Below, piece after piece: positions 29,327 through 64,000 of a DNA stretch of 64,000 bases. The position numbers and the translations under genes are program-made. Each line of letters opens with the position of its first letter. Position 1 is the stretch's first letter. Under the pieces are notes generated by a model, which saw only the letters and a program-made list of their open reading frames with translations, ran no database searches and was not told the DNA's origin. Source of the DNA: Halobaculum sp. MBLA0147 (lineage in GTDB: Archaea > Halobacteriota > Halobacteria > Halobacteriales > Haloferacaceae); the NCBI RefSeq assembly GCF_041361345.1, contig NZ_JBGKAD010000004.1, positions 124,001 through 188,000 of the forward strand, written 5' to 3'.

Positions 29327-29917
29327 TTACTGGACAGTGATAGTCTGTTCCCCGATGACCTCACCTGACTCGATGTGCTTAATCGTCACACGGAATTGTG
29401 ACCCACTAGCCATTGTCGAGCTGGCGTCGGAACTGCCCTCCTGGATCATCATTCGATCACCAGACGTGAACTGCGCCTGGGTGTCGTAAGACTGTCCATT
29501 CAGGACGATGGATAAACCGCCTGAACTGAAGGCACTGCCTTCTCCGGTGTTCGTGTCGATGTCACCGCTCTGTCCGGAGAACTGTGCCACAAGTGCGTTG
29601 GACTCGGGTCGGCGGATCTCGATGATGACCTCGTCCATTGCGAGATCGGCACCGCCGGTGTGGTCGATCTGGATCAGGCTCTGACCGCTGTCACCTGTCT
29701 GACCATCGGGCCCATCCGCGACAGCCAACGATGCTTGTGGAGCACTCGACGTGATGCCACCGCCAAGGCCGAACACGAAGGCACCGATCGTGCCGCCGGC
29801 AGCAACAACGATGATGATGAACACGATCACACCGACAACGTTCGAGACAGCCCTGTCGGTATCGATACAACTTGTAAGCTCGGTCCACCGGTCGTGGAGG
29901 TGTGTGCGAACGCTCAT
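29327..29917 (-). CDS. type IV pilin-like protein, 196 aa
   Basis: The N-terminus has the archaeal prepilin pattern: Asp-Arg-Ala-Val-Ser-Asn-Val-Val-Gly followed by a long uninterrupted hydrophobic helix (about residues 26-52). A beta-rich extracellular domain of about 130 residues follows. It should be cleaved by the prepilin peptidase PibD and assembled or anchored as a pilus subunit. The ATG at 29917 gives the usual short basic leader. It is separated from the main pilin row (50072-53752) by 20 kb and may be a major or alternative subunit for the same machine. Confidence 0.85.
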   Translation of the reverse strand: MSVRTHLHDRWTELTSCIDTDRAVSNVVGVIVFIIIVVAAGGTIGAFVFGLGGGITSSAPQASLAVADGPDGQTGDSGQSLIQIDHTGGADLAMDEVIIEIRRPESNALVAQFSGQSGDIDTNTGEGSAFSSGGLSIVLNGQSYDTQAQFTSGDRMMIQEGSSDASSTMASGSQFRVTIKHIESGEVIGEQTITVQ

Positions 29918-29942
29918 AGCTCTCTGTGAATCCCGGAGACAT

Positions 29943-30007
29943 CGAAGGATTGATTGGACAATCCTTCGGTTCCACACATGGGGATAACGGTGCCAGCCGT
30001 GGCACCG
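29943..30007. promoter_or_regulatory. two tandem hairpins upstream of the pilin gene
   Basis: CGAAGGATTG/CAATCCTTCG (29943-29952 and 29959-29968, six-base loop) and CGGTGCCA/TGGCACCG (29988-29995 and 30000-30007, four-base loop) are perfect dyads. They lie in the divergent region between the pilin gene and the membrane protein gene at 30174. They may control pilin mRNA or bind regulators. Confidence 0.55.
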
Positions 30008-31510: not shown

Positions 31511-33922
31511 ATGAGTGCAAACCTCCCCCCGACCGTCAGCTGGCTCCCATCGTGGAAGAACACGACTGACCAGATCGTTCATCACGAAGTCTTCCCGGAG
31601 ACATCCGCCACCCTCACATCCATCAGACTCCACCCCCTCATCGCACAGCGACTCGACGAACGTGGGTTCTCCGGCCTGTATCAGCACCAGGCAGATGCCA
31701 TCCGAGCCATCAGGGACGGGACGAGCACTGTCGTCGCGACGCCGACAGCCTCTGGGAAGAGCCTCACGTATGTGATCCCAGCGCTCGAAGCGGCGCTTGA
31801 ACACGACAGTTCAACGCTGTACATCGCGCCCACGCGCGCCCTCATCAACGACCAGGCAGCTACCTTCCGCAACTACGCCGAGGATCTCGATCCCAATCGA
31901 ACAATCACTGTGGGTGAGTACACTGGATCGACACCGACGGACCGGCGTCGAGAGATCCGACAGTCGCCGCCGGATATCCTCCTCACGACGCCGGATATGC
32001 TACACAACTCACTTCTACCGTACTCGATTGACGGCCCGTGGAGTGACCTGCTAGCAGACCTCGCCTATGTTGTCGTCGACGAAGTCCACCAATTCCGTGG
32101 CGTGTTCGGATCACACGTTTCCAACATCTTCCGCCGGCTACAGCGCCTGTGTGACACAGGCACTCTGGACACCGATCCACAGTTCATCTGTGCCTCAGCG
32201 ACGATCGGGAATCCAGTCGAACATGCGAGCGCCGTCACGGGGTGCTGTCCGGACGAGTTTACGCTCATCAACACCGATACGAGTGAATCAGGTCGCCAAG
32301 ACTGGGTGTTGTGGCAGCCACCGTTGAAAGACCGCGGTGATGACGCTACCGACACGAACACCCGCGTCTCAAATCATCAAGCATCACTCGACCTCTTCCT
32401 AGAGTTTCTCGGCCGAGGTTATCAGACACTCGTGTTCACGAATGCCCGGCAGACAGCAGAGCAGTACGTCGATCAAGCCCGTCAACGCGCTGCCAATGCA
32501 CCGGGACTCCCGGCAGAGGACGCAATCGCCAGTTATCACTCCCACCTCCCAGACGAGACTCGGACAACAATCGAACACCAACTTCGAAACGGGGAAGTCG
32601 TCGGCGCGTGGACAACCAGCGCCCTCGAAGTCGGTGTTGACATTGGATCGCTCGACATCGTCATCCTCGACGGGTATCCAGGAACCAAGATGGAGACATT
32701 TCAGCGTGGGGGGCGGGCAGGCCGCGGGACAGATGACAGCGCTGTGGTCCTAGTCGGCTCTGACGACCCGCTCGACGAGTACATCATGGAGAACCCGACG
32801 AGCCTCTTCCAAGGGGATGCCGAAAAGGCGGCCGTCAACAACGAGAACAGTGCCATCCAGCCCGATCACCTCCAGTCTGCTGCTGCCGAGGTCCCCCTGA
32901 CAGAGAGTGACGCTACGTGGTTCGGTGACTCCCTTGCTGGCCAGCTTGATGAACTCACAGATACCTCGCCACTCACTCGTGTTGATACCAAAACACGAAC
33001 TGACTACCGGTGGCCAGATGAAGTAGATACGACACCACACTACGACTTCTCTATCAGGTCAATCGCAGATGACAACATTATCGTCGCGGACAGGACACAG
33101 ATTGACGACCCCGACACCGAACTTGACGCTGATAGCGACGGAGTCATCACCACAATAAGTCGGAACGAGGCAATCCGCGACACCCACCCCGGTGCGATTT
33201 ACTACTCAAACGGCCAGAAGTACCGCATCACCGACGCCGACTATGATAATGAACAGGTACTCGCCGTCCCACTCGACGACACAGAGTCCTACACAGCCAG
33301 CTTGACAGAACACTCCATCTCCATCCAGGCAACTCGCGAGACCATCCACATCGGCGGGGTGTTCGACACAGAGATCACACTCGCCGATGTCTCCGTCGCC
33401 CGTGAGTTCAACGGGTATCTCGAGTACGCGTACCAAAACGACCCTGACCCTGACCGTATAGGTATTGACGATCTAGAAACACACATCCCCTCATACACGT
33501 ATAATACGACGGCTCTCTCACTGTCTCTCTCCGAGAAAGCGACTGCATCCATCGAAGAGAAGCTGGGCGATCCGGACCTCCTCGGTGCCGGGCTCCACGC
33601 AGCCCAACATACACTGACCAGCCAGTTCCCGGTCAACTACCTGTGTGACCGACGTGACATCAGTGGGATCACGAGTCATCACCATCCGGACACAGGAACT
33701 GCAACACTGTTCATCCACGACACGCATCCGGGTGGAGCCGGCCTCTGTGACCAGGCGTTTGAGGATATCAAAGCAATTCTTGATCAGAGTCTCACACGCA
33801 TCGAGACCTGTTCGTGTACGACTGGGTGTCCGACCTGTATCCATCATCCTCATTGTCGCACTGGAAACGACAATCTCCACAAAGACGGCGGCTACGTAGT
33901 GCTTCAGGCACTCAAAAAGTAG
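31511..33922 (+). CDS. MrfA/Hrq1-like SF2 helicase with DUF1998 domain, 803 aa
   Basis: SF2 helicase motifs are in order: Thr-Pro-Thr-Ala-Ser-Gly-Lys-Ser (77-84), Asp-Glu-Val-His (190-193), Ser-Ala-Thr (229-231) and Gln-Arg-Gly-Gly-Arg-Ala-Gly-Arg (398-405). The C-terminus carries the DUF1998/MZB zinc module, with Cys767, Cys769, Cys773, Cys776 and Cys782 spaced as Cys-x-Cys-x3-Cys-x2-Cys-x5-Cys. Members include bacterial MrfA and yeast Hrq1, 3'-5' helicases in DNA damage and crosslink repair. Relatives also occur in defence and mobile-element loci. Its presence among surface-system genes suggests a role in processing plasmid DNA, but repair is equally possible. Confidence 0.88.
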   Translation: MSANLPPTVSWLPSWKNTTDQIVHHEVFPETSATLTSIRLHPLIAQRLDERGFSGLYQHQADAIRAIRDGTSTVVATPTASGKSLTYVIPALEAALEHDSSTLYIAPTRALINDQAATFRNYAEDLDPNRTITVGEYTGSTPTDRRREIRQSPPDILLTTPDMLHNSLLPYSIDGPWSDLLADLAYVVVDEVHQFRGVFGSHVSNIFRRLQRLCDTGTLDTDPQFICASATIGNPVEHASAVTGCCPDEFTLINTDTSESGRQDWVLWQPPLKDRGDDATDTNTRVSNHQASLDLFLEFLGRGYQTLVFTNARQTAEQYVDQARQRAANAPGLPAEDAIASYHSHLPDETRTTIEHQLRNGEVVGAWTTSALEVGVDIGSLDIVILDGYPGTKMETFQRGGRAGRGTDDSAVVLVGSDDPLDEYIMENPTSLFQGDAEKAAVNNENSAIQPDHLQSAAAEVPLTESDATWFGDSLAGQLDELTDTSPLTRVDTKTRTDYRWPDEVDTTPHYDFSIRSIADDNIIVADRTQIDDPDTELDADSDGVITTISRNEAIRDTHPGAIYYSNGQKYRITDADYDNEQVLAVPLDDTESYTASLTEHSISIQATRETIHIGGVFDTEITLADVSVAREFNGYLEYAYQNDPDPDRIGIDDLETHIPSYTYNTTALSLSLSEKATASIEEKLGDPDLLGAGLHAAQHTLTSQFPVNYLCDRRDISGITSHHHPDTGTATLFIHDTHPGGAGLCDQAFEDIKAILDQSLTRIETCSCTTGCPTCIHHPHCRTGNDNLHKDGGYVVLQALKK

Positions 33923-35145: not shown

Positions 35146-37494
35146 ATGGTTCGACTCACAAACGTAGCCATAGGAATTGGACTGTGCATCTTCCTGATCG
35201 CTTCACTTGGCCAGGTTGCACAGGCAGCCCCTCCCGGAACATCCAGCGAAGTGAATGTCACTGTCTCCGGAACAGGATCGACTACAGGAAGTGAGAATGA
35301 GATAGTGTATAGGTTAACAATAACCGTGCCCAAGGGCCAGGGAGAAATTAATCTGCGAGTCGCTAATTGGGAAGACCCAATAAAGACGCCCGGAGAGAAC
35401 ATCAAGACCGTCACACGGGGACCACTAAGTACGGTTATATCCATAGATGGAAAGAAGGGTAAAACAACTAACCATACAGCGGTAGTCCCGGTGAAGGTTT
35501 TCTCGAGTGGAAACAATATAGACTCTGAACCAAAGGTAGTGCCAACCCCGGTCGTTGAACCTCTCAAGGACCGAAGCAACCTAACTGTAACAGAAGAGTA
35601 TAGCCTCTCTGGAGTGGACAACTACTACATGAGCTCTGGCTCAGCGTTTATCGGAAATTATGAAACTAAGTCATTCAACGAAGGGGGTGTTAATATCACG
35701 GTAGTAAAAAGTTCAAAGGCAGAAAATGAATCTCTCAACTATGGAACTAAACGGATGAGAGGACTCGGCGCTGCATTTGCATGGTACATGTCGAATGTCA
35801 CCGAAATAGATATATTCGTAGTTCCAAACAGAGGATTTAAAACCTCGGTGGTCAACCGAAGACTGGATAGAAAAAAGTCATCATTCATTTTCACTGGAGA
35901 GAATGGTCAGTTTAATTCAATCATAGCAGAGAACACACACATAGCTACAGACCACTACTATACCCCGAAGGTCAGATGGCTCACTGAAGCTTGGGACGGG
36001 TATTACAGAAACATAATCGACGGCTACTACGCTTCCGATAATGGCAGTTACCACTATAACCCCGATTCTTTGGATGATAATACACACTACTACGAGTCAG
36101 CCGATCTCACTAGTCAATCTCGGTCGAGGTTTGCTGACTATACCAAAGGACGGGTGCTTCTGGGACACATCCACTACCGAATTCACAAAAAGACAAACGG
36201 CAAAAAAGGCATCACTGACGTATTCAGACGACTGAACACGAAGCGGAGAGTGAACTACCAGTCATTAAAGAAGGCGATAAAGGCTGAGACAGGTGTTGTA
36301 CTCGGGGCTCAGTTCAGACGGTGGATGAACGGTCAAGGAATGCCGGACCCGAAAGGGAATACTACTACGTACGCTCTCCCCAAGGCATTCTATACAAACA
36401 AATTCGACATTGACGGCGACGGGGTCCCGTTCCGAACTGAGCACGAACTCGGCTCGGACTGGACAAGAGAGGACACCGACAATGACGGTCTCGACGACGA
36501 CGACGAACTCCGAAAGTACAACACCTCGCTTACCCAGGCCGACACTGATGGCGACGGTCTTGACGATCGATTCGAAGCCATCGGGATGGAGCAAAAGCAC
36601 GGATTCACACTTGATCCGGCCTCAAACGACACCGATAATGACGGGTTGAGCGACGGCAAAGAGCTGCGGCTCAACGAATCAGGCGGAGTTTCACCCATCA
36701 TCCCTGACAGTGACAGTGATGGACTCACAGACGGGGAAGAAGTAAAACAGTACAACACGTCGCCAACCAACCCCGACTCGGACAGTGACTCTCTTGAAGA
36801 CGGGAAGGAAATCACCCTCAGTACGGACCCGAAAGATCCTGATTCCGACGGTGACGGTATCAAGGATGGACGCGAGACCGAGGGTGATGGTCTCACACCA
36901 ATCACTGGCGTCCGGACGGACCCAACAGCGGTTGATACGGACAATGACGGAATGAACGATCTGGCGGAGATCAAAGCCGGACGTGACCCAGCTGGCTACG
37001 ATCTAGACAACGATGGGATCAACGACACCCGCGAGATCGAGCTCGGCCTCCTCCCTAACAAAACCGACACCGATGGCGATGGGCTTAGTGACCCCCGAGA
37101 ATTGAATCTCTCAACAAACGCCACACTTCCGGATACAGATGATGATGGTCTTGAAGACGGACGCGAGGTGAAACTGGGAACAAACCCAACTGCTGTTGAC
37201 ACCGACAATGATGGTCTTACCGACGGTGAAGAGGTAGATAAGTATGGAACCGACCCAACGCTAAAAGATACAGACGGAGATGGGATTCCAGACGGGAAGG
37301 AAGTGACCAGCAACACAGACCCACTAGAGAAGGACTCAGATGATGATGGGACCCCAGACGGCCTCGGAGAAGGGTACGAAAAACAACCGACAGTGACAGA
37401 CACAGAACAAACAGCAACACGAGGGCCCGGCTTCACAATGGTCACAGGAGCTGCAGCAGTTGTCGTTATGATACTAATCCATAGACGACACTAG
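35146..37494 (+). CDS. peptidase-like TSP3 surface protein with PGF-CTERM, 782 aa
   Basis: A signal peptide (residues 5-28) is followed by a region resembling the M1/M61-type gluzincin fold. The expected His-Glu-x-x-His helix reads Ala261-Glu-Asn-Thr-His265, and a Trp-Leu-Thr-Glu281 motif follows 13 residues later, where the third zinc ligand belongs. The downstream pattern Tyr-x-Lys-Gly-x2-Leu-Leu...Thr-Asn-Gly-Lys-Lys also fits that family. Residues 412-745 hold about a dozen calcium-binding TSP3 repeats (Asp-x-Asp-x-Asp-Gly). The C-terminus ends Pro-Gly-Phe (761-763), a hydrophobic helix and Arg-Arg, a PGF-CTERM signal for archaeosortase. The first zinc His is lost, so it is probably an inactive binding protein. 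Confidence 0.75.
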   Translation: MVRLTNVAIGIGLCIFLIASLGQVAQAAPPGTSSEVNVTVSGTGSTTGSENEIVYRLTITVPKGQGEINLRVANWEDPIKTPGENIKTVTRGPLSTVISIDGKKGKTTNHTAVVPVKVFSSGNNIDSEPKVVPTPVVEPLKDRSNLTVTEEYSLSGVDNYYMSSGSAFIGNYETKSFNEGGVNITVVKSSKAENESLNYGTKRMRGLGAAFAWYMSNVTEIDIFVVPNRGFKTSVVNRRLDRKKSSFIFTGENGQFNSIIAENTHIATDHYYTPKVRWLTEAWDGYYRNIIDGYYASDNGSYHYNPDSLDDNTHYYESADLTSQSRSRFADYTKGRVLLGHIHYRIHKKTNGKKGITDVFRRLNTKRRVNYQSLKKAIKAETGVVLGAQFRRWMNGQGMPDPKGNTTTYALPKAFYTNKFDIDGDGVPFRTEHELGSDWTREDTDNDGLDDDDELRKYNTSLTQADTDGDGLDDRFEAIGMEQKHGFTLDPASNDTDNDGLSDGKELRLNESGGVSPIIPDSDSDGLTDGEEVKQYNTSPTNPDSDSDSLEDGKEITLSTDPKDPDSDGDGIKDGRETEGDGLTPITGVRTDPTAVDTDNDGMNDLAEIKAGRDPAGYDLDNDGINDTREIELGLLPNKTDTDGDGLSDPRELNLSTNATLPDTDDDGLEDGREVKLGTNPTAVDTDNDGLTDGEEVDKYGTDPTLKDTDGDGIPDGKEVTSNTDPLEKDSDDDGTPDGLGEGYEKQPTVTDTEQTATRGPGFTMVTGAAAVVVMILIHRRH

Positions 37495-43561: not shown

Positions 43562-43600
43562 TGGCACGACGCAGTGACTCTGGTTAACTAAGTGGTCAGG

Positions 43601-51372: not shown

Positions 51373-51971
51373 CAAAGAGCACCGCGAAGACCTCACGGGA
51401 GGAGAAGAGGGAGGAGAACCCGGCAGCCAGACAGCCGACTCGCCCGTCAACGTGGTTCTCCGACACAGATCGGGCGGTGAGCGAGATTTCGAGTTACGCG
51501 ATCCAACTCTCGCTGATCGTGTTTCTCCTTGGTGGGTTTGTGACTGCTGCCGGAGCTGGTGCGAATTTCCAAACAGAGGTTCAAAAAGAGAACACACTGC
51601 AAGAAGTCGGACAGGACATCTCGTCGCAGATTCAGTTCGTCGACCGGCTCGCTCGCGAGAGCGCGAACACTGGTGTGATCCGGCAGCGTGTCGTCACACC
51701 AGATCGGGTCGGAGACAACGGCTATACGATCGAAGTCCTCTCGCCGAGCGACGCGACATCTGACTCTCGGTGTGAAGGGGCCGCGACAGCATCGACAGTC
51801 GGCTGTATCATTGTCTATCAGGGCACGGAAGCGTCGACCGATGTCAAAATCAAGACCTACTACCAAGTCGCACCAGGAACTGACGTCCAGACAACAACAC
51901 TGACCGGCGGAGATATCATCATCACACGGCCCGCGGATGCCAGCCAACCGATTGAGCTCACCAACGGGTGA
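51369..51971 (+). CDS. pilin-like protein 3, 200 aa
   Basis: ATG 51369 overlaps the previous stop. Asp-Thr-Asp-Arg-Ala-Val-Ser-Glu-Ile-Ser precedes a hydrophobic helix (about 38-60), a classic archaeal prepilin processing site with a long basic leader of about 34 residues. The soluble domain is beta-rich with a Cys pair near 132 and 142. It is part of the five-gene pilin row. Confidence 0.8.
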   Translation: MTKSTAKTSREEKREENPAARQPTRPSTWFSDTDRAVSEISSYAIQLSLIVFLLGGFVTAAGAGANFQTEVQKENTLQEVGQDISSQIQFVDRLARESANTGVIRQRVVTPDRVGDNGYTIEVLSPSDATSDSRCEGAATASTVGCIIVYQGTEASTDVKIKTYYQVAPGTDVQTTTLTGGDIIITRPADASQPIELTNG

Positions 51972-52987: not shown

Positions 52988-53752
52988 ATGAACCCGGTTT
53001 CTCACCTCTCTCAAACAGATCGGGCTGTGTCGAACGTCGTCGCAGCGCTCATCCTCCTTCTTATCACAACGTTCCTCGTCGCAGCAGGCGGATCGGCCGT
53101 TACAGAGTTCAACAAGGACACCGCCGCTGTCAGCACTGAGACGATGGAAAACGATATGGAACAGTTTGAGGGAGCAGTTCACGAAGCAGCAGCGTCTGAA
53201 GCCGGCGGGAGCCGAGTCGAGATCGCACGTGGGGCAGAGGCAGGGCAGGGAGCGTTCACCATCCAACAGGTCTCAGCAGCCTCTGTAACGATCGACGGTA
53301 ACGTCGCGTTCAACACCACGACCGGACGGGTGATCGGCGAGAGCCCGAACGGGGGCGTCGTCGTCTACGAGATGGGCGCCGTGTTCGCGAGGACACCTGA
53401 CGGCTCAGTTGAGATGGTTGATCCCCCGCGGATGGCGTTTGTGAACACAACGAACAACCGACCGTCAGTCACCGTCCCACTCTATACTCTTGAGACACAG
53501 GGGCCGATTGGCGGGACAGTGACAGTCCGGCGAACGAGTCCGCCAGACGAGACAGACAGCGTCTACGCAAACACGTTCTTCTCCCTCTCGATCCAATCAC
53601 CATTCTATGCGGAGTGGGCCGAATACTTCCGCGCGTCAGCGCCGAACGCGAACATCCTCGTCTTCCCAGATCAACAGGTCGCCCGTATCAGTATCACAAC
53701 TGGAGACGGAACCTACGTCCATATCAACGAGTACGACCTCATTGTCCAATAG
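52988..53752 (+). CDS. pilin-like protein 5, 254 aa
   Basis: Thr-Asp-Arg-Ala-Val-Ser-Asn-Val-Val-Ala leads directly into a hydrophobic helix (about 16-40), nearly the same motif as in the pilin at 29327-29917. The external domain is beta-rich and ends in strands rich in Val and Ile, as in large haloarchaeal pilins. It is a strong candidate for an alternative major subunit. Confidence 0.8.
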   Translation: MNPVSHLSQTDRAVSNVVAALILLLITTFLVAAGGSAVTEFNKDTAAVSTETMENDMEQFEGAVHEAAASEAGGSRVEIARGAEAGQGAFTIQQVSAASVTIDGNVAFNTTTGRVIGESPNGGVVVYEMGAVFARTPDGSVEMVDPPRMAFVNTTNNRPSVTVPLYTLETQGPIGGTVTVRRTSPPDETDSVYANTFFSLSIQSPFYAEWAEYFRASAPNANILVFPDQQVARISITTGDGTYVHINEYDLIVQ

Positions 53753-53874: not shown

Positions 53875-53896
53875 GCTGTGACGAATGGTTGGATAT

Positions 53897-55321
53897 ATGT
53901 CAGACAGGCGGAGGGGGGAAACAAGCTGGCTCCCGTTTGTTCGGGCGTCGGATGCGGAAGTGGTGATTGCTGGAAGTGACTTACGCGTGGCGAGTCAACT
54001 GTCAGACGCAGTTCGCGATGCACATCCAGGCGTCTCAACGAGGACACTCACTGATCTATCGTCTGTCGATTCGTATGTGGTCAAAAACAGCCCACAGGCG
54101 CTGATAACCACACACACGCTGTCACAAGCGGACGCTGCCACGTTCATCGAGAATCTGCGAGACCGTGACGCTACGATGGGGGTGATTGTCTGCGCTCCAG
54201 ATCTAGAGCCGGCAGCCGTCGACGAGATCCGAGCTCGTCCGAACACGACAGTGATCCAGGAGACCCCGCTTCAACCATCAACACAGAACCGCGTGGTGGC
54301 TGCGCTCACAGGAGTCCTAAAGGACGCACAAGTGATTGAGTCCTCGATCCACACGGAGGCAGTTCTCGATCAACTGTCGCGCTCACTCGCGATCCTTGAC
54401 AGCGACAATTCGTTCAAAGCGGTCCGAGAAACGTTCGCCGACCTCTACAATCTCCAGCCAGCCGAAATTCGCGGCTCACACTGGTCTGATATCTTCAACT
54501 GGGAATTTGGTGTCGAAACACCAACCCCCTCAGAGTTGCTTGATGGCGACCCTGAGTGGCAAGGCCCGCTCTTTGGCCCACGCGGAGATGGAACCTTCTT
54601 CCTCCACGACGCACACTTGATCAGGCTCCCGACGCTGGGGATCGTCCTCTCGACGCAACCCGACCCACGGCGAGTGTTCGAACAGGCTTGGGAACGCACG
54701 ACCCCGCCGGGCCGTGAGGAAGCAACAGAAGCTCAACCTCCACGGAACCAACTCCCGAACGGGATCTACGGGGCCCCGACATCTCGCGCCTACCTGCCAG
54801 CTGTTGTCCACACCGAGGACCCTGATGTCTCTCGAATCTATCTGCCAGAAGTTCCGGAAGACCGCCCCCACCCAGCCGTGAATGCACGGGACAGCGCCTC
54901 GGGGACGTTCGATTCTGGGATCAGATCAGTTGACGAATCCACCCATCCAAGTCCAACCGAGCCGCAGGCTGACGATGATGGACCACCAACTGCAAACGAG
55001 GTTGACCGCACCAAGTACCGCCCACACCGCGACTTGATGCTCACTCCTGCACCACTGCGAGACTTCCTCTCTCCAGAGAACAACGACATCGATGCCACTG
55101 TCCGCCGGTTCAAAGACTGGTTAGAGGGTGCTGATTCCGTCGTCTCGCACGAAGACGAGACGTTCAATATCCGGCCAGTCACCTCAGCTCGTCAAGAAGT
55201 GATCACAGCGAACCCTGTCGTGATCAACCGGTCGCTCGATGGCGTCGCTGGAACGTATCTCGCATTCCAACCAGCAGCCCCGGACACCACTATCGAGTCA
55301 GTTCCTGTATCCCCCGAGTAG
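53897..55321 (+). CDS. receiver-like/PAS-like protein, 474 aa
   Basis: Residues 18-140 have the alternating strand-helix pattern of a response-regulator receiver domain (Ala-Glu-Val-Val-Ile-Ala-Gly-Ser-Asp...Val-Ile-Val-Cys-Ala-Pro). At the phospho-Asp strand it reads Ala-Leu-Ile-Thr-Thr-His-Thr, so the phospho-Asp is missing. A PAS-like domain follows at about 155-260. The remaining 210 residues are disordered, then a small alpha/beta C-terminus. It is likely a pseudo-receiver that integrates a signal for the pilus system. The family is not recognised. Confidence 0.55.
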   Translation: MSDRRRGETSWLPFVRASDAEVVIAGSDLRVASQLSDAVRDAHPGVSTRTLTDLSSVDSYVVKNSPQALITTHTLSQADAATFIENLRDRDATMGVIVCAPDLEPAAVDEIRARPNTTVIQETPLQPSTQNRVVAALTGVLKDAQVIESSIHTEAVLDQLSRSLAILDSDNSFKAVRETFADLYNLQPAEIRGSHWSDIFNWEFGVETPTPSELLDGDPEWQGPLFGPRGDGTFFLHDAHLIRLPTLGIVLSTQPDPRRVFEQAWERTTPPGREEATEAQPPRNQLPNGIYGAPTSRAYLPAVVHTEDPDVSRIYLPEVPEDRPHPAVNARDSASGTFDSGIRSVDESTHPSPTEPQADDDGPPTANEVDRTKYRPHRDLMLTPAPLRDFLSPENNDIDATVRRFKDWLEGADSVVSHEDETFNIRPVTSARQEVITANPVVINRSLDGVAGTYLAFQPAAPDTTIESVPVSPE

Positions 55322-55425: not shown

Positions 55426-57804
55426 ATGGCGAGCCCGAACTCCTCACAATCACAGCCGTGGGCCTCTCAGTCCGAACTCGTCTCTCTCGCGTTTCCATAT
55501 GCCAATCCGTATCCGGCACAACAGTCGGGAATCTCGACAACACTCGACGTGGTGGGAGACAGGGGCTACCATTTGATCGAAGGTGCATGTGGCACCGGGA
55601 AGACACTCCTCGCACTGACAGCTGCGGTCGCACTGATGCGGTCGAAGCAGACCCCGATCCAACGAACGCTCGTGGTCACCAACATGAAACAGCAGATCAG
55701 AGCGTTCGAATCCGATATCGAAGCGATCAACGACAGTCTGGCAGATGCCCGCGATACATCCCCACTTCCAGCGCACGAGAAACAACTCCGGCCAGTGCAG
55801 AGTATTACAGCCGTCGGAAAAGCAGATCTCTGTCCCCTCGTTGCGAGTGGGGCGTCGTCACCGCAATCGATCTACGACGACTGTTCAACCCTCCAGGCGA
55901 ACACGAACCAACTCATCAGTGAGGCCTACAGTGGCGTCGAACGGCAGATGGTCGCAACCAAACTTCAAGAGGACGCCATCTCTGAAGACACGCCCTCATG
56001 GCCAGCTGACCGGCCAGACGACCACGCTGCAACCAGGGAGGCAATGCGGTTCGGGGGAATGCCAGATGAACACGACGATACGAAGTACTGTGCCTACTAC
56101 GCCGGCTACAAATCAGGAGAGAGCCCGCCACCCGGCGGGTCGAGTCGTCCGGTCACGAGACCTCAAGACATCGTGAACGAGTCGGTCGAGCAAGGAACGT
56201 GCCCACATGAGGGACTGAAACAGAGCGTCCGAGGCAACGACATCGTGATCGGAAACTACGCTCATGCGTTCAACCCCGACGTCATAAATGGGTTGACTGA
56301 CAAGGTCATCGAGTCAACAACGCTTCTGATCGTCGACGAAGCACACGAGCTCATCCCCTCGCTCAGGGATATGGCAAGCCGGAAAGTTCCGTTCTGGAAA
56401 CTCAGAAAGGCCGGAGAACAGACCGACGCACTGGTCAACGAAATAGAAACCAGGGTGAACGGCACTTTCGGAGACCCCCTATTAAACAGCCTTGGAAGAA
56501 GCCGAGCACATCCAGGCGGCTTCAGGACTTTCGCAAAATCAGGTACGCTTCTCCCAAGTGAGTTAGGAGACTGGGTTCAGTCGAGACTGAACCACCCCGA
56601 GGAAGATGAACTAACGCCTAATGAACACAGAACACTCTCTCTTCAAGACCCCACAGAAGCGGAGACGGATCTTGTATCTGAGTGGCTAGCGGAAAACCAG
56701 ATGGATACGGTCGCGTGGGGCGACGGACGATACTATGGCGAGACAATCGACCGCTTCCTCACGGAATACGCTGATATTAACCCACCGTTCGCCACATCAG
56801 AGGTCGGCCAGCTATTCGAGCTGTGGGCCAACGGCGGGAACATGAACTACCACCGAACAGTGACTCTCACGCCGCGATCGAATCCGCCACAGAATCCATC
56901 GTTTGAATGGCAGCGAACGCACCGGGCCGCACTCGAGATCAACAACACGCTCCCACGCTCTCGCGTCCTCTCCCAACTCGAAGAGTTCGGCGGCGGTGTG
57001 CTGATGTCGGCAACCCTCTCTCCATTCTGGGTCTTCGAAAGCGAGATCGGGAAGTCAATCATCGACCGCCCGATCGAAACCTCACAGTACACGCTGCCGT
57101 TCCCACCTGAAAACCGGTCCACACTGTTCGTCGGCTCGGAAGCGTTCACGTACGAGAATCGAGGCAGCCACACCGAGTACGACCCACATCCATCGACGAC
57201 ACTACCACAAGCGCGAGCTGATGTCGTCGAGGCAGCCCGTGGCCTTGTCTCCAATACCCCAGGGAACGTCCTCCTAGCCCTGCCGTCGTACGGGGAAGCT
57301 GACTGGCTCGGAACGTACCTCGAGCGGAGTGGAGCCATCACCAAGCCAGTCCTCGTTGACGAGTCATCATCCCAAGCCGAAACAGAACAACTCAAAGAGC
57401 GGTTCTTCACCGGCGGCCCGAAAGTACTGACCACATCGATGCGAGGCACACTCACGACGGGCGTCAACTACGAAGGCGACAAGCTCGCAGCGGCGGCCGT
57501 GATTGGGATACCCGTCGACAATCCGTCCGATGAACTGAACAAAGCTATCCAAGCGGTGTATGAGGAGGAGTTCGACGCTGGATTCAACCTTGCGTTCATC
57601 CCACCAGCGGTGCGGATGGCCCGACAAGCGATCGGACGTGTCATCCGGAAAGACGACGATGTCGGGATCAGGGCCTTCATCGACAGCCGGTATTCCGACC
57701 CGACGTATCAGGCCTATATCCCCCAGTCGGTCTGCGAGAACGGAGTCCCTGTTTCGCCTGACGCAGTTGATGATCAGGTCGCGTCGTTCTGGCAAACGCA
57801 CTGA
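55426..57804 (+). CDS. Rad3/XPD-like helicase with Fe-S Cys, 792 aa
   Basis: This is an SF2 helicase of the XPD/Rad3/DinG group: Walker A Gly-Ala-Cys-Gly-Thr-Gly-Lys-Thr (53-60) and Asp-Glu-Ala-His (304-307), with Gln-Ala-Ile-Gly-Arg-Val-Ile-Arg near residue 724. Cys136, Cys153, Cys222 and Cys259 lie between motifs Ia and II, the position of the 4Fe-4S cluster ligands in XPD. The family unwinds DNA 5' to 3' in repair or replication. Codon use in about 56280-56660 is more AT-rich than the rest, within a region between helicase motifs. The gene is 104 bp downstream of the receiver-like gene. Confidence 0.88.
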   Translation: MASPNSSQSQPWASQSELVSLAFPYANPYPAQQSGISTTLDVVGDRGYHLIEGACGTGKTLLALTAAVALMRSKQTPIQRTLVVTNMKQQIRAFESDIEAINDSLADARDTSPLPAHEKQLRPVQSITAVGKADLCPLVASGASSPQSIYDDCSTLQANTNQLISEAYSGVERQMVATKLQEDAISEDTPSWPADRPDDHAATREAMRFGGMPDEHDDTKYCAYYAGYKSGESPPPGGSSRPVTRPQDIVNESVEQGTCPHEGLKQSVRGNDIVIGNYAHAFNPDVINGLTDKVIESTTLLIVDEAHELIPSLRDMASRKVPFWKLRKAGEQTDALVNEIETRVNGTFGDPLLNSLGRSRAHPGGFRTFAKSGTLLPSELGDWVQSRLNHPEEDELTPNEHRTLSLQDPTEAETDLVSEWLAENQMDTVAWGDGRYYGETIDRFLTEYADINPPFATSEVGQLFELWANGGNMNYHRTVTLTPRSNPPQNPSFEWQRTHRAALEINNTLPRSRVLSQLEEFGGGVLMSATLSPFWVFESEIGKSIIDRPIETSQYTLPFPPENRSTLFVGSEAFTYENRGSHTEYDPHPSTTLPQARADVVEAARGLVSNTPGNVLLALPSYGEADWLGTYLERSGAITKPVLVDESSSQAETEQLKERFFTGGPKVLTTSMRGTLTTGVNYEGDKLAAAAVIGIPVDNPSDELNKAIQAVYEEEFDAGFNLAFIPPAVRMARQAIGRVIRKDDDVGIRAFIDSRYSDPTYQAYIPQSVCENGVPVSPDAVDDQVASFWQTH

Positions 57805-57819: not shown

Positions 57820-58344
57820 TCACAGCGTCATCAGCACAAGCCCGACACCGCTAAGGCCAGCAGCCCCACCAATCAGCATCCCAAGCGTGTTCAGGCGATT
57901 ACTCGCTGCCGTCGTCCACTCAAGTGCATACGTCTCACTCCGAAGCGGCCACAAGACCGGAATCCCCTGTTTTGAGACGACATCGGCGGCGAGGTGGATC
58001 GCCACACCAACGGTCCCCGCCAGAAACCCAGTAATCGCGAGAACCGGGATGAAGAACTCCCCGACAGGATTCCACGTGGCAGGAATGATGTCACTCAAGA
58101 GCAGTCCAACGACACTGTAGAACACCCCATAGCAGAGGCCAAACGCAACAGCGCCGCCGAGCGAGTGCAGTCGGCCGCGATGCGTCGCGAACGGGAGATT
58201 CCGATCAGCGTCTGGAATCCGGGCCGCGCTCACGATGACGAATCCTGCAGCCAATCCGAGTAATGGCACTCCAGCGACGATCATAACTGACGCGATCAAG
58301 ATACCAATCCCTGTCGACAGCGACTGATGGCCAATTCCAAGCAT
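57820..58344 (-). CDS. YdjM/DUF457-type membrane metal hydrolase-like protein, 174 aa
   Basis: Four membrane helices frame the signature of the family: His-Arg-Gly-Arg-Leu-His-Ser-Leu near residue 55-62 and His-Leu-Ala-Ala-Asp (about 117-121), followed by Leu-Trp-Pro-Leu. In characterised or predicted relatives these residues bind a metal. The physiological substrate is not known. It is transcribed opposite to the genes on either side and lies just before the VirB2-like gene. Confidence 0.8.
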   Translation of the reverse strand: MLGIGHQSLSTGIGILIASVMIVAGVPLLGLAAGFVIVSAARIPDADRNLPFATHRGRLHSLGGAVAFGLCYGVFYSVVGLLLSDIIPATWNPVGEFFIPVLAITGFLAGTVGVAIHLAADVVSKQGIPVLWPLRSETYALEWTTAASNRLNTLGMLIGGAAGLSGVGLVLMTL

Positions 58345-58449
58345 CCTACCCGGGTGTATGGACTGACACCAGAAGTTTCTTTTTCACAGAGAATAACGTG
58401 GGTGATGAGACACCTACAAGACGGGGGACCCCCACCCCGAGAGACACCC

Positions 58450-58902
58450 ATGTCACACGATACACACCCCATCGTCCGCAGGATGAAACACGCAGTCTCC
58501 CCACGTGCTGTCACAACGTGGGCTCAAACCCTAGTGATCGCAGCCGGCGTGCTCATCGCGATTGACCCGGCACTCGCAGCTGCAGGATTCATCGAGAACC
58601 TTCGACAAACCCTCAACACCTGGGAGTCGTGGGCCTCTATCCTCCTGGCCAGTCTGTTGACGTTCGGCTCACTCGTGAGTGGCGGCAAAGACCTCGTGTC
58701 GATTATGCTCTCGTCTGAGGGCGGGCAAGACCCCATCCAGGCAATGGGGAAACTCACCTTCGGCATTCTTCTCGCCGCGGTGATTTCAAAGTGGCCGACC
58801 ATCTCCGACCGGATCGAGCAATCGGTCGCGTTGAACAACGCTAGCGGCGCGATCATGCCGGTCAACGAGGAACTGATCACGGTCGTCACCACGTTCCTCT
58901 AG
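58450..58902 (+). CDS. small membrane protein of VirB2/TrbC-like topology, 150 aa
   Basis: A hydrophobic segment with an Ala-x-Ala-Ala-Ala-Gly end (about residues 25-46) is followed by an amphipathic helix, a second hydrophobic helix (about 60-80), a polar turn with Gly-Gly-Gln-Asp, and a third helix (about 95-112). A signal followed by two membrane helices is the layout of VirB2/TrbC pilins of type IV secretion systems. Sequence similarity alone is too weak to be certain. It is followed after four bases by a secreted protein gene, and 2.3 kb later by a TrbL/VirB6-like gene. Confidence 0.6.
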   Translation: MSHDTHPIVRRMKHAVSPRAVTTWAQTLVIAAGVLIAIDPALAAAGFIENLRQTLNTWESWASILLASLLTFGSLVSGGKDLVSIMLSSEGGQDPIQAMGKLTFGILLAAVISKWPTISDRIEQSVALNNASGAIMPVNEELITVVTTFL

Positions 58903-58906
58903 GGCA

Positions 58907-60934
58907 GTGGTTCCACGACGGCTCGCCCTCTGTGGAGTAGTAATTGTCGTCCTTCTCCTTACCGCGACGACGACCGCGACAATCGCTCCTGCTGATACAC
59001 CGGTAGACGATCAGTTCCAACCACCACGGGCAGATCTCACGGAGCTTCCCATCGACCGAACAGTGTATCAACTGCTCTGGGGGCTCACTGCGGTAGCAGA
59101 TCCTCAGCTACTCCCCTACGGGCCGCAACTCACGACAACCGGTGGAAACTCTCAAACGCTTGACTTTCTCCCCTTCTTCAGCCCGATTGGACAGGGATCA
59201 GCGGCATACAATAGTTACACATACGCCAACACAGAGAACACGTCAAGATCCACGAGCGTAAGGCCACTTGGAGCAGAGTATATAAATGGGGTCTACATTA
59301 AGCGACAATACGCTTGGATCGACGGATTTGATTCAGGGGTTCTATACCACACAGAGAGCGGAGTCAAACGTGTTGTCGATGTCCGCAAGAACCCACAGGT
59401 TCGTGTGATGGCCGACTATCGGGTTGAAGAACCCACGACCGACACTCCTGAAAACCCGACTCCAGGGGCTGAACGTACTATCGAGGATGTCACCGAGGTG
59501 ACGGCAAGAACTGAAATCAGGCTCAACGGGAACACGATAGATACACGCGTAAACCCAGATCCAACTTTCAGCGTCCCTGTGACTGCGTTTGGAAGCGATA
59601 ACACTGTTCGATTCATACATAATATCTCGGCTACAGTTACCGTTACTACCCAACAGTACACCTGCGTACAACGGGCCGATCCAGAGCCTGATCCACAGCC
59701 AGGTACCCCATCAAACGGAACTAGTGAAAACAGCAGTAGCACTGCCACTCCGACCCCGGACTCAACAGCGTCACCCGCCCCGACAGAAACAGTAGATGAG
59801 CCATCTGGACCGCCGAGGTGTATCGAGTATGGCTGGGAGACAACGAACTCCTCCAAGTTCAGCTTTACTCAGGACACATCTGATACTCTGACCTTCAGGT
59901 CGTACAGTCCAGAACGCCCTCGCGCAGCAATCATCAGCTATCAGAACCAACCGCAGGCATACCTCCTCGTAGACCCACCAGACGGCGCAACTGCGATCGA
60001 AACGGCAGACCAGCGGATTCTCGATCTCCCGTATGGGGTCGTTCGAACACGGGACGCTATCAACGCGCGAACCGTTCTTCATACCCCCAGCGGGGAAATT
60101 CGGAATCCACAGGAGCCACCGACTCCAGTTGACCGTCACCTGTATCCGAAACAGGATGAAGCAATCTTGACATTGAAAACCGGAGTCTCCCAAAGCGGCG
60201 TCGTCTCTCCACAAGTGATTGGCACCGGTGATGAAGAGACACTCTCGCCCGCACGGGGGTACTTTCCGCAGTGGGCGCCCTACTCCGAGCCGACAACTGC
60301 AGACTCGTATGTCGTCCGAATCCCCCCAGGAATCACAGAGATCATACTGACGCAGGGCTTGCAGTACAGGACACCGTTCGGCCTGATCAACACCTCCGTC
60401 GACCGAGCCGGGCAGGTGAGAGATCCCGTCGTCAGCGTCAACACAACCGAACAACAGAACTCAGATCAGGTGAAGTTCACCGTCTATCCTCGGACACAGG
60501 GAGGAGATCTGATCACCACCTACGACCGAATCCTTGAGATTGAGGTTCGTATCAACGGGACAACGTACACCACCGGGAACACTCGAGGTGGCGAGCCGTT
60601 CACGTTCTACGTCAACCAGTCCCGATACGGCGGCGAACCGATGACAGTCAAGCTTGACGGAGACGGGGTCCCATCACCGCAAGCACTCGCAGCACCGAGT
60701 CGGTTCGGACACGAAGGAGTCCGCTACACCACTACAACTAAACAGGTCTTCGTGCCAGCAACTCAGACGTGGGGAGTCTTCACCGCCCGCGTCCTGACAC
60801 TCGCCGAGCTCATTTGGTCAGGATTTGGCCCAGCAGCAGCAACAGCAGGCTTCATGCTCGTCCTCATTGAACTTATGACACCACTCAACCCGTTCACAAC
60901 CGTCGTGACCGCAATACTTGACATCGTGAACTGA
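58907..60934 (+). CDS. secreted membrane-anchored surface protein, 675 aa
   Basis: A GTG start four bases after the previous stop encodes a signal peptide (about 5-25). A large extracellular region of beta-rich segments is interrupted by a Ser/Thr/Pro linker at about 265-300. A C-terminal hydrophobic helix at about 635-655 anchors it in the membrane. Two Cys near 250 and 304 flank the linker. No known domain is recognised. Its coupling with the VirB2-like gene suggests a structural component of the same apparatus. Confidence 0.65.
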   Translation: MVPRRLALCGVVIVVLLLTATTTATIAPADTPVDDQFQPPRADLTELPIDRTVYQLLWGLTAVADPQLLPYGPQLTTTGGNSQTLDFLPFFSPIGQGSAAYNSYTYANTENTSRSTSVRPLGAEYINGVYIKRQYAWIDGFDSGVLYHTESGVKRVVDVRKNPQVRVMADYRVEEPTTDTPENPTPGAERTIEDVTEVTARTEIRLNGNTIDTRVNPDPTFSVPVTAFGSDNTVRFIHNISATVTVTTQQYTCVQRADPEPDPQPGTPSNGTSENSSSTATPTPDSTASPAPTETVDEPSGPPRCIEYGWETTNSSKFSFTQDTSDTLTFRSYSPERPRAAIISYQNQPQAYLLVDPPDGATAIETADQRILDLPYGVVRTRDAINARTVLHTPSGEIRNPQEPPTPVDRHLYPKQDEAILTLKTGVSQSGVVSPQVIGTGDEETLSPARGYFPQWAPYSEPTTADSYVVRIPPGITEIILTQGLQYRTPFGLINTSVDRAGQVRDPVVSVNTTEQQNSDQVKFTVYPRTQGGDLITTYDRILEIEVRINGTTYTTGNTRGGEPFTFYVNQSRYGGEPMTVKLDGDGVPSPQALAAPSRFGHEGVRYTTTTKQVFVPATQTWGVFTARVLTLAELIWSGFGPAAATAGFMLVLIELMTPLNPFTTVVTAILDIVN

Positions 60935-61210
60935 TCCTTGTCCGACGCCTGTCCTGAGTTCTCTGTGATTCTACCCCTATCGGTTGCAGCCCTCTATACT
61001 GGCCGATATGGTCCTAGAACAAGCACTTAGAACGTCTGGACTGGCTGATTAGGCAGTAGAGGACTCGACGAGCGTCTTACCAATCACACACGGCGGCGGC
61101 TTCAAACTGATTGGTAAGACGTTAGCGGCCGGGTTACTGGCCGTGGAACGACTGCTAGCGAAAGGGGAAAATCATATGATGGTACACTGACAACGGGGTA
61201 GCAATACGCC
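60935..61210. other. intergenic gap with inverted repeats
   Basis: No gene is visible. The gap holds the 14-bp inverted repeat at 61073-61121 and an ATCATATGAT palindrome at 61171-61180, about 30-40 bp before the TrbL/VirB6-like start. Both are candidate control sites. Confidence 0.5.
61073..61121. repeat. 14-bp perfect inverted repeat, 21-nt loop
   Basis: CGTCTTACCAATCA (61073-61086) and TGATTGGTAAGACG (61108-61121) are exact reverse complements. The repeat lies between the surface-protein gene and the TrbL/VirB6-like gene and could be a terminator, an operator or a structured RNA. Confidence 0.7.
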
Positions 61211-64000
61211 ATGCCGAGAGAGACACGTCTCTCCACCCAAACCACCTTCACCGGAATCATCGTCATCCTCCTTGCTCTGGCCCCAGCGCACGCCGCGGCC
61301 GTCCAACCAGCACCAGGGATCACAAGCACCACCGGTCAACACTCACTTGCTCCGGACCCTGGAGCAGCCAGTGGTTGGGAAGAGACACGGCCAAACCAAC
61401 GAGACACACCAACTCCCACAGGCACCGCAACGAATACTACCCAAAATTCGACAGGAGGTGGGTTCTTATCCGGCCTCGGAAAGTTTCTCGATAACCAACC
61501 AAAAGTCAGCATCAATCTCGCACAGGGCTTTCAGGCCGGTATCCTCGGGCTTGTTACGAGTGGAGGTGCAACACTCAAAAATCAATTGTACACAGCACTA
61601 GTGTGTGTCGGGCTCACCACCCCGAATTACGCCGATACTCAGCCATTTACCTCGGAACTTCCCTCAAACCCCTACTGCAGCACACTAGTCAACTTCGGTG
61701 GTGTCGACTTAGGCGCACACCAACTATTCATCATTCTGGGCTTATCGCTAGTATCGATCTACTCGATGTTTGAGATCACCCGCCTGTGGATCCGCGGAGC
61801 CGCATCAGAACTCCCACTGGTTGCGATCAAAACAGGCCTCGCGATGATCTTTGTTAAAAACCCCGACATCACGTGGGACCTCGCTGTCGGGCTGGTCAGT
61901 TCTCTCGTAGGCGCCTTCCTCCCGTCGACGGGCTCTCAAGTGAATCAACTCGGAAGCGTCATCGGTGTATCCTCACTGAACCCTCTCATCAACGCCGCGT
62001 TCCTTCCAATATTCATATTGAAGTCTGTCCTGCTCATTTTGCTGTTCTTCGCTTTCCTAGCGAATGTCATTCGATTCGTTGGAATGATCTTCCTATACTA
62101 CCTCTGGCCGCTCCTCATCGTCAAGTGGATAGCACCGGGTAACATCCCAGTGGTAGACTCGTTCTTGAGCGGAACAGAACGTCTCGTCCCGTTCCTGTAC
62201 TACCCGCTATTCCCAGCTCTCGCAGTCGGCTTTACCATATCGCTTCAAGTGAGCGTGGGTGGAGGGGTGTTTAACACTGGGGTGATCAAACCCGCCCTCG
62301 CCGACATCGTCGGCACGATCGCCCTCTGTGCAGGAACGTACGCTGGTCTCAAAGCCAGCATGGCAGGCAAGATCGTACTCAAAGGCATGAAGGCAGCCGG
62401 CACTGTCGCACTGACCGCCGGGGCAGGATTCGCGCTCGGTGGGGCAGGAGGGGCCGTCCGGGGCCTTTCAATGGGCTCCCGATATGGATCTACAGCTGGC
62501 GTTTTAGCTGGCGCTGACGAGGGTCGGAGACAGAGGGAGGGTCTCGCAGGAGCACTGTTCGAAGACGATGAAGGAGTATTCCAAGAAGACGATAATGAGC
62601 CGGAAACTGCGAACGATATGGCAGGGCTACTGACCGATGAAGATGAAGGTCTCCCGGGTGATGAAGACCCCACAGATGAAGCAGCAGACCGCGACGACGA
62701 TCTCACAGGCGACTTCAACGACCTCAACGGACTGACCAGTGACTTCGAAGAGGATACCCCTGAAGACCAAATCGACCCACGGACAACGGATACGGACCGC
62801 TCACCTGGTCGTCCTGAAGACGACTCGAGAAGCATTGTCGATTCGATTCGAGACACGCTCTCTGACATCACTGGTGGGAGTGGCGTTGAAATCGATCCAG
62901 AAGAGCCGATCTCCGCAGCGGGGTTAGACGATGATGAACTCAGAAAAAAGATGCAAAAACACCCAGCCTATCCGGACCCTCCAGAGGACGAAGACCCCCA
63001 TGAACTACTGAACGATCCGGATTATAAAGACGGTATTGATAAAGGAATGATCGGGTGGGGATTAGGAGGTCGTGAGCATACACCCGAGGATCCTCCCCAG
63101 GGAGAACAGCCGCAAGATGATTCACTACAGAGAGAACCCCGACAGAAAAAGACAGGAGCAAGGGAACCCGAGCAAGAGGAGGAGCCCCCAGTGGGTGACG
63201 AAAAAGGCACAGGTCAAGACCGTACGAGACCTGACCAGCACACAACTAGCGTGGGAGACAGACCAACACCCACCGCAGTAGATGACAACATCGGCGACGG
63301 TAAGGACACGACTCAGGGGGGATACACAACAATGGCAGATAAACCCGATCCTGAAGCCACATTCGGGCATATGGAGCAAAATCTCCCACTTGACCAGGTC
63401 GAAACTGATGCTGACAAGGAGATGGCTCAGCACTTTGCCAGTCAGGGTCACGATGGGAGGGGCACCATCGAAACAACGACTGATGATGGGACAGAAGTGA
63501 TCCTTGGACAAAATGGCGTTATCCTTGCCGCTGATGACGCATCCACTTGGTCTCAAGGAAAGCTACGAGTCAATAAAGACGGGGAACGCGTTCACGCAGA
63601 CCCAAAGGACTACGAACGGATCTCGATGAACTATGCCGGCAACACAGAGGCCAATACGGGTGAACTGCGCCAACAGTACAAAGACCACATCGAGGCCATT
63701 GGCGGGAATCCAGATGAAGTTGTCTTCAGAGACACTGATATCGGCGTTCATGACGTGACGAATGACAGATGGGTACGAGTCAGCCAGAACACATATCCTT
63801 CTGCGTACGGAGAGGTGGAAGGATCTGGGGGAGGTAAGAAGTGGACGATAGACCCCGACAAGCACACGCTCCCGTATGAGGCAGTTGCAGAATTCCAGAG
63901 CGACATCGCGGGAGGGCAGATCAGCAGCTGGAAAGACCTCCGTAAGGCTTCGGACAACGGGCAGGTCGAAATGGACGTCCCATCAGGGGTGTCAGGATTT
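61211..64000 (+). CDS. TrbL/VirB6-like polytopic membrane protein, partial, at least 930 aa
   Basis: From ATG 61211 the frame stays open to the end of the window. A signal-like helix (about 13-32) is followed by a Thr/Gly-rich spacer and seven or more hydrophobic segments between about residues 95 and 415. This includes a dense cluster with Leu-Leu-Phe-Phe-Ala-Phe-Leu and Tyr-Tyr-Leu-Trp-Pro-Leu-Leu-Ile-Val. An acidic, Asp/Glu/Pro-rich domain then continues to the window edge, with a more globular segment from about residue 735. This resembles the channel components TrbL/VirB6 of type IV secretion systems, which have a membrane core and a variable tail. I infer that it is a central channel; no conjugation test is possible here. 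The C-terminus lies outside the window. Confidence 0.7.
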   Translation, partial: MPRETRLSTQTTFTGIIVILLALAPAHAAAVQPAPGITSTTGQHSLAPDPGAASGWEETRPNQRDTPTPTGTATNTTQNSTGGGFLSGLGKFLDNQPKVSINLAQGFQAGILGLVTSGGATLKNQLYTALVCVGLTTPNYADTQPFTSELPSNPYCSTLVNFGGVDLGAHQLFIILGLSLVSIYSMFEITRLWIRGAASELPLVAIKTGLAMIFVKNPDITWDLAVGLVSSLVGAFLPSTGSQVNQLGSVIGVSSLNPLINAAFLPIFILKSVLLILLFFAFLANVIRFVGMIFLYYLWPLLIVKWIAPGNIPVVDSFLSGTERLVPFLYYPLFPALAVGFTISLQVSVGGGVFNTGVIKPALADIVGTIALCAGTYAGLKASMAGKIVLKGMKAAGTVALTAGAGFALGGAGGAVRGLSMGSRYGSTAGVLAGADEGRRQREGLAGALFEDDEGVFQEDDNEPETANDMAGLLTDEDEGLPGDEDPTDEAADRDDDLTGDFNDLNGLTSDFEEDTPEDQIDPRTTDTDRSPGRPEDDSRSIVDSIRDTLSDITGGSGVEIDPEEPISAAGLDDDELRKKMQKHPAYPDPPEDEDPHELLNDPDYKDGIDKGMIGWGLGGREHTPEDPPQGEQPQDDSLQREPRQKKTGAREPEQEEEPPVGDEKGTGQDRTRPDQHTTSVGDRPTPTAVDDNIGDGKDTTQGGYTTMADKPDPEATFGHMEQNLPLDQVETDADKEMAQHFASQGHDGRGTIETTTDDGTEVILGQNGVILAADDASTWSQGKLRVNKDGERVHADPKDYERISMNYAGNTEANTGELRQQYKDHIEAIGGNPDEVVFRDTDIGVHDVTNDRWVRVSQNTYPSAYGEVEGSGGGKKWTIDPDKHTLPYEAVAEFQSDIAGGQISSWKDLRKASDNGQVEMDVPSGVSGF

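Follow-up and report, generated by a model that had tools for sequence, protein, structure and literature searches.

The window, a 64,000-nucleotide stretch of DNA from Halobaculum sp. MBLA0147, lies on an extrachromosomal contig of 226.5 kb (contig C4) that encodes ParA and Orc1/Cdc6; the Orc1/Cdc6 gene (20753-21967 in window coordinates) is in keeping with the view of the initial annotation that this is a replicon with its own origin. All of the components named in that annotation are present as open frames in 29327-64000. They fall into a type IV pilus (T4P) block that ends at 53752 and a type IV secretion system (T4SS) block that begins at 58447, about 5 kb apart on one contig. The initial annotation had described a single 35-kb run; its parts are all there, but a listing of gene gaps shows one minus-strand gene and gaps of 100-130 bp between the modules, which splits these genes into two or more distinct runs and rules out one unbroken operon.

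The pilus block encodes a PilB pilus assembly ATPase (45331..47958, plus strand) that matches PF00437 (E 8e-30) and PDB 2oap (E 4.5e-75), has an intact Walker A motif (GGTASGKT) and has afGspE and FlaI as solved relatives. Its closest relatives found are 36-41% identical, and the viral contigs searched held no close relative. The PilC platform protein (47948..50071, plus strand) matches PF00482 in two stretches (E 1e-18) and is 29% identical to a Salinibaculum PilC; its open frame begins at 47747, which probably lies upstream of the true start. Pilin-like genes follow on the plus strand, with matches to DUF7287 (50072..50674; PF23958, E 2e-8), DUF7288 (50671..51372; PF23959, E 3e-22), DUF7266 (51369..51971; PF23928, E 1e-10) and, twice, DUF7289 (51979..52863; PF23960, E 4e-9; and 52988..53752; PF23960, E 1e-9, with a weak Pilin_N match). 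A type IV pilin on the minus strand (29327..29977, with a likely start at 29917) scores above the cut-off for PF07790 Pilin_N (E 1e-9) and is 36% identical to pilin S17860 of a Salinibaculum plasmid. In all six pilin-like proteins, a site of DRAVS, ERG or DRG type precedes an N-terminal hydrophobic segment. Profiles and N-terminal signal sites confirm the six pilin-like genes, the PilB-type ATPase and the PilC-type platform first annotated here. With PilB, PilC and, linked to them, pilin-like genes bearing class III signal sites, the block qualifies as a haloarchaeal T4P cassette.

The core of this cassette and the order PilB-PilC-DUF7288-DUF7266 are common to chromosomal clusters. In front of PilB, an open frame at 43592..45202 (plus strand) stands where the initial annotation had placed a RecA-fold protein; the position holds, and the fold is suggested by weak similarity to S17835 (24% identity across 147 aa, E 2e-4). 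S17835 is a DUF7125 protein that precedes PilB on the Salinibaculum plasmid, and the window frame is its counterpart by position. The PilB3-C3 and PilB1-C1 systems of Haloferax volcanii likewise combine PilB and PilC with pilin-type partners, but these are host adhesion systems, whereas the window cassette lies on a plasmid-like contig (PMC6491452).

Pfam matches also confirm the two SF2 helicases, the J-domain protein and the TSP3 protein reported at the locus. The MrfA/Hrq1-type DEAD helicase (31511..33922, plus strand; PF00270, PF09369, PF22982) has relatives in 72 plasmid records, many at 41-43%, and is probably a neighbour and not a machine part. Also neighbours are a TSP3-repeat surface protein (35146..37494, plus strand; PF18884, seven repeats), whose hydrophobic segments mark an N-terminal signal and a C-terminal anchor, and a J-domain membrane protein (38544..40568, plus strand; PF00226, E 6e-10) with about five hydrophobic segments. 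Between the modules lie a PAS-like protein (53885..55321, plus strand; weak PF08448), an XPD/DinG-type helicase (55426..57804, plus strand; PF13307, E 3e-27), and a YdjM-family membrane protein (57820..58344, minus strand; PF04307, E 3e-13). Among archaeal plasmids, the XPD helicase has relatives in just three hosts, Halococcus dombrowskii, Salinibaculum KK48 and Haloferax larsenii. The YdjM relative S17745 (E 5e-5) is encoded in Salinibaculum in the interval from VirB4 to VirD4.

The T4SS block opens with a VirB2-like candidate pilin (58447..58902, plus strand), identified by topology and position in an open frame from 58327, with 58447 as the likely start. It has the VirB2/TrbC topology proposed for 58327-58902 (a signal-like segment and two hydrophobic helices), yet gave no profile or hhalign match, and its structure model has a pLDDT of 52. 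Next is a 675-aa two-anchor ectodomain protein (58907..60934, plus strand) with N- and C-terminal hydrophobic segments, by position the counterpart of a protein of about 600 aa encoded next after VirB2 in the T4SS of other haloarchaea; sequence homology between the two was not found, and neither the 675-aa protein nor the ectodomain family matched any structure in the PDB. The large VirB6/TrbL-like frame starts at 61211 as annotated, leaves the window and ends at C4:188525 (plus strand). Its 1104-aa membrane protein aligns with the haloarchaeal VirB6 family (hhalign probability 84%, E 7e-6) and matches no Pfam family.

Past the window edge, the contig encodes a VirB3/VirB4-N protein. Other haloarchaeal loci have a relative of it upstream of their VirB4, which we count in favour of a conjugation-type system. 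A VirB4 ATPase lies 1.8 kb past the edge (C4:189813-192902); it matches NCBIfam VirB4 models (E 1e-31 and 5e-29, below their narrow equivalog cut-offs) and the VirB4 structure PDB 4ag5 (E 2e-23), and its Walker A motif is intact (GDIGAGKS). No close relative of this VirB4 was found in genome contigs or viral contigs. At 7.9 kb past the edge is a VirD4-like coupling protein of 3375 aa (C4:195926-206053) that scores above the cut-off for TraG-D_C and below the family cut-off for TIGR03743 TraD (E 9e-11); its C part is primase-like (DNAG_N, E 1.5e-5, just under cut-off). A bPH2 membrane protein also belongs to the block. Judged by sequence, the locus has both the VirB4-type ATPase and the VirD4-type coupling protein of a conjugative T4SS, in keeping with the initial annotation's prediction of DNA transfer. 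That annotation had pointed beyond position 64000 for VirB4, VirD4 and a relaxase; the two ATPases are there, but the relaxase was not found, as PF03432, PF08751 and PF01076, representing three MOB families, are absent from the whole genome. We conclude that the downstream block is probably a divergent conjugation-type T4SS and a probable DNA-transfer machine.

Comparable gene sets occur on other haloarchaeal elements. Haloarcula sp. JP-L23 (CP050017.1, CP050016.1) has T4SS_pilin-like, Ig-like, VirB6-like, VirB4 and VirD4 proteins in one run; unlike the window element, this plasmid cassette includes a relaxase (PF03432, above cut-off), and it has no T4P within 20 kb. Integrated haloarchaeal elements bearing fsx1 also carry VirB4 and TraG/VirD4 on a mobile element, and the available part of the report on them mentions no T4P (PMC9259645). 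Pilus and T4SS blocks usually occur apart in relatives: among the matches listed, PilB was within 100 kb of VirB4 at none of 30 VirB4 loci (26 genomes), and about 20 further VirB4 neighbourhoods had no T4P nearby. T4SS lacking a pilus cassette are found in Natronosalvus, Halorientalis, Haladaptatus, Haloarcula JP-L23 and many more loci, and pilus cassettes lacking a nearby T4SS on pHME505, in Halobaculum halophilum and on pHLAC01. The initial annotation's statement that such parts are normally separate stands for haloarchaeal relatives, but not in general, since pairs are known from IncI plasmids and PAPI-1 (PMC12857230) and from Ups/Ced (PMC9905601).

The only other replicon seen with both blocks is the 560-kb plasmid of Salinibaculum sp. 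KK48 (NZ_CP129994.1), where T4P and T4SS have the same order and direction, about 7-9 kb apart. The order VirB2, ectodomain protein, VirB6, VirB3, VirB4, VirD4 is found again there, and the Salinibaculum VirB2 falls just under the cut-off for PF18895 T4SS_pilin (E 5e-5). The XPD helicase, RPA, TFB and MrfA have relatives on this plasmid too. It differs in that RadA, Topo VI B and other genes separate its blocks, and its proteins are 20-38% identical to their window counterparts. In a PilB tree, neither the window PilB nor that of Salinibaculum groups with the closest PilB proteins from chromosomes and plasmids, and the tree gives neither of the two a firm place. A common T4P-T4SS ancestor for the two elements was considered and rejected on the VirB4 tree, which places their VirB4 proteins in different clades (that of the window on a long branch).

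The initial annotation had joined pilus and secretion parts into one hybrid machine. We reject a single hybrid operon because the genes are spaced by gaps, YdjM lies among them on the minus strand, and the blocks occur separately elsewhere. More loosely, the PilB/PilC motor, with an ATPase of the VirB11 superfamily, would drive or retract the VirB2-like pilus or work with VirB4 and VirB6. The modules do adjoin, the T4SS block showed no VirB11 gene of its own, and VirB11 profiles match PilB (TIGR02788, E 6e-33); these matches, however, reflect the whole ATPase superfamily, and the archaellum ATPase FlaI scores far better. Moreover, PilB, PilC and the pilin-like genes make up a T4P cassette resembling chromosomal ones, T4SS relatives occur with no PilB nearby, and plasmid comparison shows the two sets carried independently, which largely counts against a hybrid. 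We consider this reading very improbable, and marginally more so the further step by which the motor would provide a VirB11-like function and work the T4SS pilus as a previously undescribed archaeal conjugation machine. A better, though still tentative, alternative is that the element is a mosaic megaplasmid on which two unrelated modules meet by chance, a conjugation-type T4SS beside an ordinary adhesion pilus with no transfer role. The negative VirB4 neighbourhoods and the plasmid-borne cassettes away from any T4SS argue for it. So does a rough estimate that takes each 3.5-Mb genome to have about two PilB matches and counts about 50 VirB4 loci, by which roughly one PilB would lie within 20 kb of a VirB4 by chance against two seen; on this count, adjacency by itself is not beyond chance. 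Against it stand the shared order, direction and companion genes on the Salinibaculum replicon, whose VirB4 belongs to a different clade, and the functional T4P-T4SS pairs of R64 and PAPI-1 (PMC12857230). It is unlikely that the T4SS instead serves Ced-like DNA import or protein delivery into neighbouring cells: the failure to find a relaxase would fit, as would the standing of Ups pili and Ced import as the best-studied archaeal T4P/T4SS pair (PMC9905601), but DNA export is what a VirD4-type coupling protein carrying primase-like domains would suit, and Thermococcus pT33-3, also archaeal, needs its plasmid-borne VirB4/VirD4 for conjugation and has no recognised relaxase (PMC12857230).

We favour, at about even confidence for the whole, a large haloarchaeal plasmid or plasmid-like element with two adjoining but distinct modules, a conjugation-type T4SS and a standard haloarchaeal pilus set possibly related to mating, as on IncI plasmid R64. 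The VirB4 and VirD4 profile matches, the T4P-T4SS order in Salinibaculum, and the IncI, PAPI-1 and Ups/Ced precedents support this reading; the missing relaxase families, the minus-strand gene and gaps between the modules, the assignment of VirB2 and the 675-aa protein by topology and position, and the many T4SS loci with no nearby T4P weigh against it. IncI plasmids such as R64 pair a Dot/Icm-like conjugative T4SS with a T4P that raises transfer in liquid (PMC12857230). As in R64-like plasmids, both modules here are on one replicon; the window proteins, however, are archaeal and of other families, and the role of the pilus is predicted. The Ups/Ced systems of Sulfolobales also join an archaeal T4P with VirB2-, VirB6- and VirB4-like parts for DNA exchange (PMC9905601, PMC11868833), but are UV-induced host systems that import DNA, whereas the window blocks lie together on an extrachromosomal contig that also encodes a VirD4-like protein.

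If the modules are linked in this way, PilB and PilC would build pili that hold donor and recipient together, with a prepilin peptidase from the host. VirB4 would power assembly of a channel for transfer out of the VirB2-, VirB3- and VirB6-like parts. VirD4 would recruit plasmid DNA and drive it through the channel, and synthesis of the complementary strand may be primed by the primase-like part of VirD4. Such a pairing may promote the spread of the element. Haloarchaeal conjugation has been little studied, and a T4SS review from 2025 covers only crenarchaeal plasmids and Thermococcus pT33-3 in its section on archaea (PMC12857230). The T4P/T4SS pairing, already known from a few bacterial mobile elements, is here archaeal, and a nearly complete haloarchaeal T4SS set adjoining a pilus cassette offers a testable case of whether pili aid archaeal mating and, in the same element, of how DNA moves without a recognised relaxase.

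Contig NZ_JBGKAD010000004.1 (C4; 226,510 bases) belongs to a haloarchaeal assembly of 4.29 Mb in six contigs, and the window spans C4:124001-188000. Because the very first bases of C4 are a start codon and its ends show no terminal overlap, the contig may represent a complete circle that has been rotated. It also looks like an independent replicon, since it encodes Orc1/Cdc6 (window positions 20753-21967), ParA, and PolB. Features that we noted on C4 include a methionyl-tRNA synthetase gene on this plasmid-like contig (window 6498-8231), a family B DNA polymerase (window 23152-25428) with relatives on 120 plasmid records and 43-47% identity to many haloarchaeal plasmid relatives, and a surface protein of 1213 aa that contains PKD domains (window 25551-29192) and flanks the region studied here. 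The stretch C4:209071-213342 is G+C-rich (69% in the 210-220 kb bin), and several small proteins encoded within it resemble diverged copies of one family.

The initial annotation had proposed a hybrid pilus/VirB machine at 29327-64000, and all the genes that it named are present as open frames. The type IV pilus (T4P) block holds, on the plus strand, PilB (45331-47958), whose best likeness among solved structures is to archaeal GspE and FlaI, and PilC (47948-50071; plus strand), which overlaps the PilB end; these two and four pilin-like genes (DUF7287, DUF7288, DUF7266, and DUF7289) overlap or nearly touch one another. A second DUF7289 protein follows the four at 52988 (plus strand), and a separate Pilin_N pilin lies on the opposite (minus) strand at 29327. 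The RecA-fold protein noted in the initial annotation (43592-45202) is possibly the counterpart of a DUF7125 protein that precedes PilB on the 560-kb plasmid of Salinibaculum KK48 (NZ_CP129994.1), a relative of which also precedes PilB on the haloarchaeal plasmid pHME505. Since chromosomal clusters in three other haloarchaea share its core and gene order, the pilus block is a T4P cassette of the ordinary haloarchaeal kind.

A PAS-like gene, an XPD-type helicase gene, and a minus-strand YdjM gene lie between the pilus block and the type IV secretion system (T4SS) block. Based on position and topology only, a VirB2-like candidate (58447-58902; plus strand) and a 675-aa two-anchor protein (58907-60934; plus strand) are putative first members of the T4SS block, followed by a VirB6-like open reading frame that begins at 61211 on the plus strand and runs out of the window. 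Beyond the window edge we identified a protein of 387 aa (C4:188645) whose N-terminus is VirB3-like, and both of the ATPases that the initial annotation had suggested seeking past 64000: VirB4 (C4:189813-192902) and a 3375-aa VirD4-like protein (C4:195926-206053), with a bPH2 membrane protein gene and then a minus-strand gene between them. From sequence comparisons, the assignment of VirB4 is firm, that of VirD4 good, and that of VirB6 moderate. In several T4SS loci of haloarchaea, the VirB2-like gene is followed by one for a two-anchor ectodomain protein of ~600 aa; these proteins form a conserved family (members at L017:36801-38810, L100:13654-15489, and L102:9963-11792) that showed no match to solved structures.

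The C part of the C4 VirD4-like protein shows a primase-like DNAG_N match just under the cut-off, and its 3211-aa relative in Halobaculum marinum shows a weak Pox_D5 match. Giant VirD4-like proteins of 2400-3400 aa are encoded at C4:195926-206053, L104:19950-29585, and L103:19947-27170; no T4SS genes are annotated within ~20 kb of the giant VirD4-like genes of Halobaculum marinum and Halorubrum salinarum. The relaxase that the initial annotation had also suggested seeking did not appear, with families PF03432, PF08751, and PF01076 absent from the whole genome. In this the C4 element differs from the cassette of Haloarcula JP-L23, where plasmids carry, between VirB4 and VirD4, a gene for a short relaxase that is MobA/VirD2-like (L018:23069-23686; L019:23060-23659); PF03432 scored above its cut-off in the single copy that was tested. 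Archaeal conjugative plasmids have been described as having no recognizable relaxase.

The Salinibaculum KK48 plasmid also carries both blocks, with a T4P cassette followed in the same direction by VirB2, an ectodomain protein, VirB6, VirB3, VirB4-N, VirB4, YdjM, and VirD4. Its VirB2 gene starts 8.6 kb past the DUF7289 gene that closes the PilB run and 6.5 kb past a further DUF7289-like gene, and the PilB-to-VirB2 distance is 16 kb (from the PilB start) compared to 13 kb in the window. The VirB4 proteins of the two replicons fall in different clades (tree support 100/100), and the T4P-T4SS pair is therefore seen with two T4SS lineages. This plasmid (stretches L017, L049, and L131) additionally encodes its own DNA polymerase, thymidylate synthase, dihydrofolate reductase, RecB-helicase, Topo VI B, RadA, NucS, primase, and Hsp70, a gene set that we liken to that of a giant virus or a Borg-type element.

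The main rival explanation is that the T4P and T4SS blocks are independent neighbors. By a rough estimate, about one pair within 20 kb is expected by chance among ~50 VirB4 loci, so the two pairs seen would not be significant by number. No T4P genes were found near the closest VirB4 relatives of Salinibaculum (~60% identical; five genomes) in stretches of 13 to 80 kb, nor any T4SS within 20 kb of the T4P genes on pHME505 and the Halobaculum halophilum and pHLAC01 plasmids; on pHLAC01, a VirD4-like gene lies ~100 kb from the T4P genes. Comparing listed positions by eye, with PilB matches listed to ~E 1e-89 and weaker paralogues outside the comparison, we found a listed PilB within 100 kb on the same contig at 0 of 30 VirB4 loci (26 genomes). 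It is unlikely that the T4P and T4SS parts form a single hybrid machine, as the initial annotation had proposed from their co-location.

IncI plasmids provide a model for a conjugation-type T4SS with a neighboring T4P, and PAPI-1 and Ups/Ced are further precedents for T4P together with T4SS (PMC12857230, PMC9905601). DNA transfer by the C4 element, the direction of that transfer, and the role of the pilus are points that we infer; in the simplest view of our analysis, the element would comprise a conjugation-type T4SS and a neighboring T4P that may help mating.
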